Positions 1-37,421 of a stretch of DNA of 37,422 nt are shown here, in pieces. The notes under the pieces were generated by a model. It ran no database searches. It saw only the letters and a program-made list of their open reading frames with translations, and was not told the DNA's origin. The DNA lies in the NCBI GenBank assembly GCA_020850775.1, contig JADZEA010000186.1:1-37422 (forward strand), in the 5' to 3' direction. The stretch is from a bacterium (lineage in GTDB: Bacteria; CLD3). The first letter of the stretch is position 1, and the number at the start of each line of letters is the position of its first letter. The position numbers and the translations under genes were made by a program.

Positions 1-156
1 AAAATACACTATTCAAAACCAAGCGAACGTACAAACATCAAAGGTGGAGAAAATGTTGCCGGGTGTTTTGGTTCAATCAATCAAGCTAGTGTCAGTTTTG
101 TCGGAATTTCTAAAAAAATGAATTTTCAAATTAATTTTCCAGCAAAAAAAAGCTAA
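1..156 (+). CDS. C-terminal fragment of an unidentified protein
   Basis: The reading frame is open from the window edge and ends at TAA 154-156, so only the last 51 residues are visible. The fragment contains a TNIKGG motif followed by a short beta-rich stretch and a lysine-rich end. This vaguely resembles the ends of Bacteroidota DUF4249 lipoproteins, but it is too short to assign. Its stop codon overlaps the stop of the convergent nnr gene by four bases (153-156), which supports its being a real gene end. Confidence 0.45.
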   Translation, partial: KIHYSKPSERTNIKGGENVAGCFGSINQASVSFVGISKKMNFQINFPAKKS

Positions 157-1670
157 TTTCTTGTCATTAAAATCGCTTTTGGTAAAAAATCAATCAGGTT
201 ACTTGCACTAACAGAAAATTCTGTCAGTGCATTTTTAGCTAAGTCTCCCGAAAACCCGTGAAGAAAAGTCCCCAAAACGGCACTTTCCAAAGCATCTTTT
301 TTTTGAGCCAAAAACGAACCTAAAATCCCCGTTAAAACATCACCTGAACCTGCTGTTGCCATCCCTGAGTTGCCGCTTGAGTTTACAAAAATTTCGTTTC
401 CGCTAAAAATCACAGTCGGCGAACCCTTCAAAACAAGCGTTACTTTGTGCTTTTTTGCGAAATCTTTTCCAATTTCCAAAACGTTTTGCCTGATTGTTTC
501 CAAGTCAAGTTTTGTGAGCCTCGCAAACTCACCAAAGTGTGGAGTAAAAATTGAGTTTTCAGGCAAATTTTTCATCAAATCATTTTGTTCTGCAAAAATG
601 TTCAGTGCGTCAGCGTCAAAAACAGTTGGTTTTTCCGCTTTTTTCAGGTGCGAAACAAATTTTATGAAAAGCTCCTTAGTTTGTTCTGAAGTTCCCAAAC
701 CTGAACCAACAACGCAAACGTCAGACCAGTTTATTTTTTCAGCAAAACCATCAAAAATTTTGTAAGGAAAAGTCATCGTTTCAATCAAACTTGCTTCAAA
801 AATTGCGTTCAAATCCTCAGGAACAGCTAAAATTACGAGCCCGCAACCCGCTTTTAAACAAGCCTTTGAGTTCAAAATTGCTGCTCCGGTCATTCCTTTT
901 GAGCCTGCAAAAATAAAAACTTTGCCAACCGAATTTTTGTAAGCATCAAAATTTCGTTTTGGCAAAAGTTCGCAAGCGGAGCTTTGAGAGATTAATTTTG
1001 CCGTAAAACCTGCTTTTTCGTTTGCTTTTGCCGGGAAACCAACGTCAAAAGTGAAAATTTCACCAGTGAAATTTTTAGCAGAATTCAGGTAAAGTCCTGT
1101 TTTTGCTTTTCCAAAAGTAATTGTAAACGTGGATTTTACGGCTTCATTTTCACAAATTCCGTTTTCACCGTTCAAACCTGTTGGAACGTCAAGAGCAAAA
1201 ACCGTTGTGTTCAGGGAGTTAATTTTTTTCACAACTTCTGCCGTAAAATCTGAAAGTTTGCCGTGAAAACCTGTTCCCAAAATTGCGTCAACGATGAAAT
1301 CAGGTTTTTGCAGGCTTTCAAACTCATTTTTTGAAGTAAGAACTTTCACGAAACCATTGATTTTTTTGTAGAGTTCAAGTTTTTCTTTTGGCAAGCCTTG
1401 AATTTCATTTTCATCACAAAGCAAAATAATTTGAACGTTTACGGAATAATTTTTCAGCCATCTTGCAACGACAAAACCATCGCCTCCGTTGTTTCCTTTT
1501 CCGCAAAAAACAAGGCAGGAAGTATTTTTCAGGTTTGGAATTTTGGTTTTTATCAGGTCAAAGGCGGATTTTGAAGCAAGTTCCATCAAAATTGTTTCAG
1601 CTAAGCCAAAATCATTGGTTGTGATTTTATCAATTTTTTGTGCTTGTTTCGGAGAAACCAGAAGTTCCAT
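153..1670 (-). CDS. nnr: bifunctional NAD(P)H-hydrate epimerase / ADP-dependent dehydratase
   Basis: This cytosolic metabolite-repair enzyme (505 aa) is predicted to interconvert the R and S forms of hydrated NAD(P)H and to dehydrate the S form using ADP. The N-terminal YjeF epimerase domain spans about residues 1-215 and carries GKGNNGGDG at 57-65. The C-terminal ribokinase-like dehydratase domain spans about 225-505, with the nucleotide-binding motif AGSGDVLTGI near residue 440. The fused length matches the usual 490-510 aa. It starts at ATG 1670 with AAAGGA about nine bases upstream. It appears to be transcribed alone and converges with the fragment at 1-156. Family assignment is firm. Confidence 0.95.
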   Translation of the reverse strand: MELLVSPKQAQKIDKITTNDFGLAETILMELASKSAFDLIKTKIPNLKNTSCLVFCGKGNNGGDGFVVARWLKNYSVNVQIILLCDENEIQGLPKEKLELYKKINGFVKVLTSKNEFESLQKPDFIVDAILGTGFHGKLSDFTAEVVKKINSLNTTVFALDVPTGLNGENGICENEAVKSTFTITFGKAKTGLYLNSAKNFTGEIFTFDVGFPAKANEKAGFTAKLISQSSACELLPKRNFDAYKNSVGKVFIFAGSKGMTGAAILNSKACLKAGCGLVILAVPEDLNAIFEASLIETMTFPYKIFDGFAEKINWSDVCVVGSGLGTSEQTKELFIKFVSHLKKAEKPTVFDADALNIFAEQNDLMKNLPENSIFTPHFGEFARLTKLDLETIRQNVLEIGKDFAKKHKVTLVLKGSPTVIFSGNEIFVNSSGNSGMATAGSGDVLTGILGSFLAQKKDALESAVLGTFLHGFSGDLAKNALTEFSVSASNLIDFLPKAILMTRN

Positions 1671-1789: not shown

Positions 1790-2258
1790 GTGAGTGTAAG
1801 GCTCTCACTGAAAACTTGCGGAATCCACGCTTCTTAGCGGGGTTTACGCTAAACCAAAAAAAATCCCGTTAATCCTGAAATCCCAAAAATCTGTGTTTAG
1901 ACAAAAGTTACGCTTTCAAAACAACCAGCGTGAATTCCGCTAAGAAGCGTAAAACCCGCTTGAAGAAGTTGAGAACCTGACTGCAAGTCAGACCCTCACT
2001 GAAAATCTTGCGGAATCCACGCTTCTTAGCGGGGTTTACGCTAAACCAAAAAAATCCCGTTAATTCTGAAATCCCAAAAATCTGTGTTTAGACAAAAGTT
2101 ACGCTTTCAGAACAAACGGCGTGAATTCCGCTAAGAAGCGTAAAACCCGCTGAAAGAAGTGAGAGCCTGACTGCAAGTCAGACCCTCACAAGTTTGTTGT
2201 GTGAGGCGATCACTGAAATTTTCGCTGAATCCACGCTTCTTGGCGGGGCTTACGCTTT
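1790..2258. repeat. tandem ~191-bp repeat with inverted 32-bp arms (two full units and one partial)
   Basis: Unit 1 starts near 1805, unit 2 near 1996 and a partial unit 3 near 2210. Each full unit has a left arm (1818-1849; 2010-2041) and an inverted right arm (1928-1959; 2119-2150) sharing the 14-bp core ACGCTTCTTAGCGG. The partial unit has only a left arm (2224-2255), whose core differs at one base (TTGG for TTAG). Each arm can also fold on itself as CGC-N6-GCG. Units 1 and 2 end in CTGACTGCAAGTCAG (1977-1991; 2167-2181), a perfect 6-bp stem. GTGAG/CTCAC pairs occur at 1790-1808 and 2160-2189. Units 1 and 2 are nearly identical, so the duplication is recent or homogenised. Confidence 0.85.
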
Positions 2259-2470: not shown

Positions 2471-2944
2471 ATGGCTAAATTCTCAAATGAAATAATTTTG
2501 CAACTAATTCAATTAATGCTTGCTCCTGCTGTGATGATTAATGCTTGTGGCTTGTTAATTTTGGGAATTAACAGCAAGTACTCAATTATTGTAAACAGAA
2601 TTCGTTTGTTAAACGATGAAAAACGAAATTTAATTAATTTGTCAAAAGAAAATGAAAGCCAGGAAAGAATCAAAAGCATTTCTGAACAGCTAATCAAACT
2701 CGCTTTCAGGGTAAAAATTGTTCGTAACGTCGTTTTTTGCTACGTTTCCGCCCTAACTCTTTTTGTGCTTACTTCAATTTTAATTGGTTTCGATTTTCTG
2801 ACTTTGACTTTCAGCCTGAAATATTTTAGCATTGGAACTTTTTTGTGTGGAATGATTTTGGTTCTTTCAGGTGCGCTTTTAACAAGTTACGAGATTTTTG
2901 AAGGCTACAAAATTGTCAGGTTTGAGGTTGAATCAGGGCATTAA
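2471..2944 (+). CDS. DUF2721 family membrane protein
   Basis: This is an integral membrane protein of 157 aa with three predicted helices at about 16-34, 84-106 and 118-140. The first helix and the following charged segment (LAPAVMINACGLL, then the SIIVNRIRLLNDE stretch) match the DUF2721 pattern, in which a hydrophobic helix is followed by an arginine-rich linker. Function is not established for the family. ATG 2471 is preceded by AGGAAG about nine bases upstream. It follows the hairpin repeat region and converges with the GNAT gene, the two stops overlapping by four bases (TTAA 2941-2944). Confidence 0.8.
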   Translation: MAKFSNEIILQLIQLMLAPAVMINACGLLILGINSKYSIIVNRIRLLNDEKRNLINLSKENESQERIKSISEQLIKLAFRVKIVRNVVFCYVSALTLFVLTSILIGFDFLTLTFSLKYFSIGTFLCGMILVLSGALLTSYEIFEGYKIVRFEVESGH

Positions 2945-13638: not shown

Positions 13639-14829
13639 ATGAAAATAAAATTAGTGTTTCTTTTTAGTTTGTTTTTTGCGATGACTTCCTGCGCTTTGTT
13701 AAAGAATGAAGAAGCACCTGAAGTTGAATGGGAAAAAACTTTTGGAACTGAAAATTTTGATGTGGCGAATTCAATTTTTCCAACAAAAGACGAAGGTTTT
13801 ATTTTTTGTGGTTACACAAATTCCAACGACGAAGAAATCTTCAGTTTTTGGCTAACAAAACTTGATAAAAGAGGCGTGGTTGAGTGGGAAAAAACTTTTG
13901 GTGGAAATGAAAATTACGTTGCAAATTCTGTAATTCAAACTTCTGAAGGTGGTTTTGCAGTTTGTGGTTACACGGGTTCCAAAGGCGAAGAAAACACTGA
14001 TTTTTGGATTTTGAAACTTGATAAAGAAGGCAATCCGGAATGGGAGAAAACACTTGGAGGCTCTGATTTTGATGTAGCAATTTCAATTGTTCAAACTTCT
14101 GAAGGTGGTTTTGCAGTTTGTGGTTACACGAGTTCAGAAGGTGAAGGGAAAAATGATTTTTGGGTTGTCAAACTTAGTGAAAACGGAGAAATTGACTGGG
14201 AAAAAGTGCTTGGTGGAAATGACGTTGACAGAGTTAGCTCAATCATTGAAACACAAGATAAAAGTTTTATTCTTTGTGGTTACACAGCCTCAAAAGGGAA
14301 TGGTTGGTCTGATGCCTGGCTAATTAAAATTGGAAAAAATGGGAACTTGATTTGGGAAAAAACTTTTGGAAGTCCTAACGAAGACATTGCCACTTCTGTT
14401 GTTGAAACAAAAGACGGGAATTTAATATTTTGTGGCAGAACAAGCGCAAAAGGTCCGAATGAATTTGATTTTTGGGTTGTTTGTACAAACTCTTCAGGCA
14501 AACAAGTTTGGGAACAAATTTTAGGCGGTTCTGATTTTGATAAAGCAAACTCAATCATTAAAATTACAGGAGAAAAAGAGGAAACTTTTGTTTTGGCAGG
14601 TTACACAGCTTCAAGAGGTTCAGGAAAAGAGGATTTTTGGCTTGTAAAAATTAACGGTGCCGGTGAATTGATTTGGGAAAAAATGCTTGGCGGAGAAGAA
14701 CAGGACGAAGCAAACTGTGTTGTCCAAACAAAAGATGAAGGTTTAATTGTTTGCGGTTTTACAACTTCTAAGGGTTTTGGTGAAAAAGATGCCTGGATTG
14801 TAAAGTTCAAACCGAACTCTAAAGATTGA
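13639..14829 (+). CDS. lipoprotein of seven tandem ~52-residue repeats (predicted beta-propeller)
   Basis: A signal peptide ends at a lipobox-like MTSC with Cys18, so the product is probably lipid-anchored. The rest is seven repeats beginning at W31, W83, W135, W187, W239, W291 and W346. Each follows WEK-(T/V/M)-(F/L)-GG, D-x-A-x-S-(I/V), (F/L)-x-x-CG-(Y/R/F)-T, then DFW-(L/V)-x-K. Five repeats are exactly 52 residues. The sixth has three extra. Seven blades would close one beta-propeller. I know of no assigned function; similar repeats occur in large surface proteins, often with sorting domains, which this one lacks. At DNA level 41 bases are identical between repeats 2 and 3 (13934-13974 and 14090-14130). 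Confidence 0.85.
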   Translation: MKIKLVFLFSLFFAMTSCALLKNEEAPEVEWEKTFGTENFDVANSIFPTKDEGFIFCGYTNSNDEEIFSFWLTKLDKRGVVEWEKTFGGNENYVANSVIQTSEGGFAVCGYTGSKGEENTDFWILKLDKEGNPEWEKTLGGSDFDVAISIVQTSEGGFAVCGYTSSEGEGKNDFWVVKLSENGEIDWEKVLGGNDVDRVSSIIETQDKSFILCGYTASKGNGWSDAWLIKIGKNGNLIWEKTFGSPNEDIATSVVETKDGNLIFCGRTSAKGPNEFDFWVVCTNSSGKQVWEQILGGSDFDKANSIIKITGEKEETFVLAGYTASRGSGKEDFWLVKINGAGELIWEKMLGGEEQDEANCVVQTKDEGLIVCGFTTSKGFGEKDAWIVKFKPNSKD

Positions 14830-37253: not shown

Positions 37254-37421
37254 TTATTTCAACAAAACCATTTTTTTTACTTCGCTAAAATTTTTTGCTT
37301 CAAGCCTGTAAAAATAAATTCCGCTTGAAACTGCGTTTCCACTAAAATCTGTTCCGTTCCATTCAACAAAACCGTTTGCTTTTTTGAGTTCAAACTCACG
37401 CACAACTTCGCCAAGCACGTT
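37254..37421 (-). CDS. C-terminal fragment with FlgD-like / type IX sorting domain
   Basis: The frame is open to the right edge and ends at TAA 37254. The visible 55 residues form a typical FlgD-like / T9SS type A C-terminal segment: V-x-W-x-G-x-D-x-x-G-x-x-V-x-S-G-I-Y-F-Y-R-L near 19-40, then a basic KKMVLLK end. In FCB bacteria this tail directs secretion to the cell surface by the type IX system. The rest of the gene is outside the window, so its cargo function is unknown. It lies 49 bp upstream of the flavoprotein on the same strand. Confidence 0.85.
   Translation of the reverse strand, partial: NVLGEVVREFELKKANGFVEWNGTDFSGNAVSSGIYFYRLEAKNFSEVKKMVLLK

Follow-up and report, generated by a model that had tools for sequence, protein, structure and literature searches.

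What kind of element forms the tandem hairpin repeat in a gene-free gap of the analysed window, a stretch of 37,422 nt that is one whole contig of a 3.09 Mb genome (G000, 265 contigs)? The original prediction, made from the sequence of this stretch, described two nearly identical units of ~191 bp and a partial third, and the layout was reproduced. Two ~191-bp units that are 93-95% alike occupy positions 1790-2255 together with a partial third copy of the first arm at 2224-2255, and TRF run on the window reported a period of 191 bp (2.0 copies, 94% matches, 1804-2189). The arms, 32-33 nt long and 78-79% complementary, are separated by 76-77 nt, and the core 14-mer ACGCTTCTTAGCGG occurs in the window four times exactly and once with one mismatch (0.06 expected). 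The CTGACT-GCA-AGTCAG stem described at the end of each full unit is present there, nested in a longer imperfect hairpin, GTGAG...CTCAC (1969-1999 and 2159-2189), and degenerate partner hairpins at 1790-1808 and 2201-2213 had been overlooked. The cluster consists of two distinct hairpin types, both occurring as inverted pairs: REP1, corresponding to the arms, and REP2, corresponding to the end stem with its degenerate partner. The gap is a divergent intergenic region between a YjeF/NAD(P)H-hydrate dehydratase gene (153-1670, minus strand) and a DUF2721 gene (2471-2944, plus strand). No tRNA or Rfam family (at gathering score) was found there. The modules of the cluster are listed below, with the analyses that define them.

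1790-1808, plus strand: T*, degenerate REP2 partner hairpin, a T module with an inner deletion, GTGAGTGTAAGGCTCTCAC (sequence)
1818-1849, plus strand: A1, REP1 hairpin (arm comparison, folding, module scan, covariation)
1861-1904, plus strand: M1, spacer repeat AAATCCCGTTAATCCTGAAATCCCAAAAATCTGTGTTTAGACAA (sequence, module scan; counts of M-like motifs)
1928-1959, minus strand: B1, REP1 hairpin, inverted copy (arm comparison, module scan, covariation, DNA folding)
1969-1999, plus strand: S1, REP2 hairpin holding CTGACT-GCA-AGTCAG (sequence, module scan, covariation)
2010-2041, plus strand: A2, REP1 hairpin (arm comparison, module scan)
2052-2095, plus strand: M2, spacer repeat (sequence, module scan)
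2119-2150, minus strand: B2, REP1 hairpin, inverted copy (arm comparison, module scan, DNA folding)
2159-2189, plus strand: S2, REP2 hairpin (folding, REP2 pattern search, covariation)
2201-2213, plus strand: T*2, degenerate REP2 partner hairpin GTGAGGCGATCAC (sequence; weak folding)
2224-2255, plus strand: A3, terminal degenerate REP1 hairpin, then TTTTT (sequence, core count, module scan)

A different kind of repetition was seen at 13639-14829 of the window, where a gene carries internal 156-bp tandem repeats with units 'GGFAVCGYTSSKGE..DFWIxKLDKxGxxEWEKTLGG'; its sole domain match, a beta-propeller, is sub-threshold.

A search of the whole genome placed the repeat unit at 108 BLAST positions on more than 20 contigs. 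The near identity of the two units fits a mere local tandem duplication without wider meaning, but this dispersal refutes that alternative and leaves it practically no probability. Mismatch scanning of 0.40 Mb of own-genome contigs, together with genome-wide pattern searches, revealed 35 clusters, 30 of which are multi-module, holding 68 A, 50 B, 16 S and 15 T hairpins; the numbers run slightly high, as certain contigs share repeat sequence at their ends (e.g., the end of C214 and the start of C185). B is the inverted copy of REP1 and T the inverted copy of REP2, and the intact T consensus, GTGAGTGTCTCACTTCTTGGTGAGGCTCTCAC, was present at 15 other places on own-genome contigs. The clusters are intergenic, and the modules of any one of the about 35 clusters all lie on the same strand and run S, T, A, (M), B before S or A recurs; in most of the clusters A is the last module. 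The S-T gap measures 9-11 nt and the T-A gap 9-12 nt, B-A is often 10-11 nt and B-S mostly 8 nt, and the A-B gap is 14-16 nt without M and about 71-83 nt with it. From one site to the next the clusters differ freely in length, module order and copy number, and at some positions B is replaced by other hairpins, e.g., GTGCACTTCGGCAAGCTCAGTGACCGC. About a dozen clusters are situated at contig ends, and REP arrays account for many of the assembly breaks in this genome.

Inside some clusters (L054, L059, L056, L057) further hairpins were noted, CTTCGGCAAGCTCAGTGACCGC and ATTCCTGC...GCAGGAATGACCG, which are common across unrelated bacteria; the latter of the two is similar to REPs of the CGTC type. 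For CTTCGACAAGCTCAG, a hairpin associated with the clusters, a full-text literature search returned no paper.

REP1 has the form GCGG-N5-ACGC-loop-GCGG-N5-ACGC (~32 nt), and almost every copy carries G.A and A.G mismatches at the same positions; REP2 is the GTGAG...CTCAC hairpin of ~31 nt. That each arm folds on its own agreed with the energies: the first arm alone, as DNA, gave -9.3 to -10.2 kcal/mol (z about -4.5 to -5), and the whole unit in RNA folding gave z = -6.05. The A strand of REP1 DNA folds better than its complement (-9.3 vs. -5.7 kcal/mol); for REP2 DNA, the complement folds better than the given strand. Covariation, suggested earlier as a check, was detected in both hairpins. 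Across A, B and the copies from the sister genome, Calditrichaeota bacterium CLD3 121 (G001), which was the one further member of the family among the genomes compared, the inner pentamers of REP1 were paired in 84.8% of cells vs. 74.6% in shuffled sets, six pairs were changed on both sides (30 such cells vs. 10.3), none of 500 shuffles reached the covariation score, and all slid registers scored far worse. For REP2, 99.3% of cells pair, three pairs are doubly changed and the score was again reached by 0 of 500 shuffles. Kinship alone can lift related sequences above shuffles without any structure; the slid controls argue against such an artefact here. The fold of the whole unit through its arms, proposed originally, held only in part, since the arms are complementary as described but their pairing is not maintained in about half of the units. 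The loops disagree in 18 of 37 A-B pairs: that of B, in A orientation, reads TGAAA/TGGAA and that of A is of the TTCTT-/TTTTT-type, a mismatch that rules out the long A-B duplex as a maintained structure. The maintained structure is the small nested hairpins rather than the long arm-to-arm fold.

Beyond its own genome, the repeat is restricted. The REP1 pattern gave 99 strict matches in G000 and 7 in G001, none in seven other genomes of the class and 0-3 in the remaining genomes, close to the reversed control. The REP2 pattern gave 8 matches in G000, 14 in G001 and none in 13 other genomes (control 0). In a collection of 84,980 species the B-arm pattern occurred outside its own genome once, solely in CLD3 121, and no match to the repeat was found in phages, plasmids or viral contigs. 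Most REP2 copies elsewhere in G001 are intergenic, several of them as S-T pairs; their overlaps with frames stem from the use of stop-to-stop frames. Single REP1 arms were also found alone in G001. The REP1 sequence has diverged between the two genomes; the link between them is drawn from the shared architecture (GCGG-N5-ACGC twice) and not from identity. When empty sites were sought for the window locus, none of the eight related genomes yielded its DUF2721 neighbour.

The idea of an interspersed palindrome mobilised by a separate RAYT-like enzyme is supported: the repeat is dispersed, intergenic and covarying, and the RAYT genes of the sister genome are flanked by its two hairpin types. A correction applies to the enzyme in the window's own genome. 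No Y1_Tnp match was found in G000, nor any RAYT remnant with a profile of the G001 RAYTs at E up to 5; this absence is provisional because a small gene within repeats at contig ends could be lost. G001 encodes exactly two Y1 genes, and each is flanked by one of the two hairpin types. RAYT-1 (L044, 1306-1860, minus strand) has on either side a 96-bp direct repeat, the two copies being 91% identical and each holding an inverted REP1-type hairpin pair. RAYT-2 (L049, 1312-1860, minus strand) has GTGAGA[AG]CCCGACTCAGAGTCGGAATCTCAC and the partner CTGAGATTCTCACTYCCAGTGAGGCTCTCAG on both sides, and this design matches that of S and T. The two proteins are 55% identical; both match PF01797 above the cut-off and NF047646, REP-associated tyrosine transposase, below the curated cut-off, and the sole PDB match of RAYT-1 is TnpA-REP 4er8. 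In a more distant genome with 8 Y1 genes (G006), the Y1 gene of L175 (G006:C136) is adjoined by CAACGCACTTCAAAAGTGCGTTG hairpins.

The same data weigh on the possibility of MITE-like elements, in which the 32-bp arms would serve as terminal inverted repeats for a DDE or other transposase instead of a RAYT. The arms are indeed inverted and about 77 nt apart, and the M spacer resembles the ends of inverted-repeat elements in a distant genome (G047). Covariation, however, shows every arm to be a hairpin in its own right, G001 contains arms without a partner, the loop interrupts the complementarity between the arms in 18 of 37 pairs, and a Y1 gene in G001 is flanked by the same hairpin architecture, which makes a MITE-like origin very unlikely. 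G001 contains nothing equivalent to the M spacer. An M-like motif, AAATCNNNGTTCAGACA, has 25 matches in G000 and 266 in G047, a member of another phylum, where the two strands have equal numbers (reversed control 0); four other genomes have a few matches, and the other genomes of the CLD3 class have none. The M-like repeat in G047 forms inverted-repeat elements (loci L031, L033, L035 and L037). Its origin as a RAYT product there was rejected, as neither of the two Y1 loci has M-like repeats on both sides.

Altogether, the shape of the hairpins, their number, their location between genes in inverted pairs and mosaic arrays, and the flanking of RAYT genes in the sister genome make it highly probable that the repeat is a composite REP/REPIN (BIME) array, in which two REP families are joined in the unit [S-T]-[A-M-B]. 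The marks of REPs were found: imperfect palindromes of 20-40 nt with conserved structure (the covarying 32- and 31-nt hairpins), many dispersed extragenic copies in one genome and inverted pairs (A-B and S-T) grouped in mosaics. Flanking of a RAYT gene by the repeat was seen in G001 for both types, and not in the window's own genome. Neither a GTAG/GTGG nor a CGTC tag stands beside REP1 or REP2 in the examined cluster sequences. Integron attC sites likewise fold as single strands; attC arrays, whose hallmarks are RYYYAAC/GTTRRRY core sites and an integron integrase, were considered, and no cassette genes lie between the hairpins.

For the history of the array we infer past mobilisation, local amplification and RAYT loss. 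Each REP family would have been dispersed by its own RAYT, a Y1 HUH endonuclease of the kind seen in G001 that would act on single-stranded hairpin DNA. Recombination or copying may then have multiplied the composite unit locally into same-strand tandem clusters, and the unit would have reached further intergenic sites. The RAYT genes would have been lost from G000, or are missing in its assembly; the GTAG-less RAYT system of this genome is apparently orphaned, and the array therefore probably non-autonomous now.

Precedent exists both for composite REP arrays and for REPs without a RAYT. P. fluorescens SBW25 has REPINs as well as tandem clusters of GI-GIII REPs with a peak spacing of 184 bp (Bertels and Rainey 2011, PMC3116915). 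As in SBW25, the inverted REP pairs are dispersed intergenically, each REP group has its own RAYT, and ordered tandem arrays mix two REP groups, at 191 bp here. Unlike in SBW25, there is no GTAG-type tag, the RAYTs reside in the sister genome rather than the same one, clusters dominate over single REPINs, and an extra spacer, M, is present. Compared by motif description, the closest published description for the G001 RAYTs appears to be TnpAREP subclass 2.6, found mostly in Bacteroidetes and characterised by NH[LIV]H, WQ, YIH[QN]NP and SS, ~179 aa and atypical flanking structures (Quentin et al. 2018, PMC6006769). The G001 RAYTs share the size (182-184 aa), HxH, YIHQNP and the SS motif, and non-canonical hairpins flank their genes with copies elsewhere; they differ in having NHFH/THFH and FQ instead of NH[LIV]H and WQ, and in belonging to the CLD3 lineage, not to Bacteroidetes. 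REP classes whose own genome lacks a RAYT are known (Nunvar et al. 2013, PMC3686654), likewise with abundant REPs and a RAYT in a related genome; in the present case that relative belongs to a different genus, and gaps in the assembly make the absence provisional. CGTC-tagged REPs without a dedicated transposase (Di Nocera et al. 2013, PMC3733652) are also short intergenic palindromes lacking a RAYT, and the module ATTCCTGC...GCAGGAATGAC of some clusters looks similar to them; the REP1 and REP2 stems are longer, with mismatches, and have no CGTC tag.

The novelty lies in the lineage, in the two REP families and their RAYTs, and in a common cap and an enrichment beside type IX secretion (T9SS) cargo genes, both described below. 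REP-RAYT systems are extended to an uncultured lineage, with hairpins that lack the usual GTAG/CGTC tags and that tag-based searches would miss. One of the sister genomes has two RAYTs and few scattered REPs, the other fused, amplified arrays and no detected RAYT, a pair in which the fate of REPs without a RAYT can be studied.

A terminator-like hairpin, AAAGGGCAAACYTTTCAGCYTGCCCTTT, termed the cap, was found by pattern search 13 times in G000 (C21:564-591, C94:10028-10055, C242:10654-10681 and ten more) and not in G001 (control 0). Twelve of the 13 caps lie just past the 3' end of a cluster, in cluster orientation. For 13 of the 35 clusters, the stop of a T9SS sorting-domain gene lies within about 110 bp, in 12 of these 13 cases convergent at the cluster 3' end (binomial p about 4e-6, with a rough estimate of 2,250 genes). 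REP modules were found within 400 bp of the stop in 14 of 98 T9SS sorting-domain gene tails, and the cap in 9 of these 14 cargo tails vs. 1 of the 84 others. Plain co-duplication of the cargo tails with the clusters was rejected (coding-tail likeness 0.63 vs. 0.59 in random sets, p = 0.14). That the capped arrays constitute a 3'-end or recombination module of the T9SS gene family seems unlikely; if they did, they could assist in exchanging or homogenising 3' regions among the cargo genes. The cluster in the window lacks both a cap and a cargo neighbour.

Many clusters stand directly after a stop codon and end at a terminator-like hairpin, and their single-strand folding is strong, as would be expected if they were kept chiefly as structured RNA, bidirectional terminators or mRNA-end stabilisers, whatever their origin. 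Against this speak the lack of an Rfam match, the free variation of the clusters from site to site in length, module order and copy number, and the position of the window cluster between divergent genes, where no terminator is needed; we hold such a role as the main one to be very unlikely. Of the identities offered originally, neither the structured RNA nor the chromosome-organisation site gained positive evidence. The composite REP array could, as a by-product, terminate transcription or act on mRNA ends. With regard to T9SS itself, the genome has about 114 matches to C-terminal sorting domains, though it lies outside Bacteroidota, and a weak partial match of this type is located at the right edge of the window (37266-37421).
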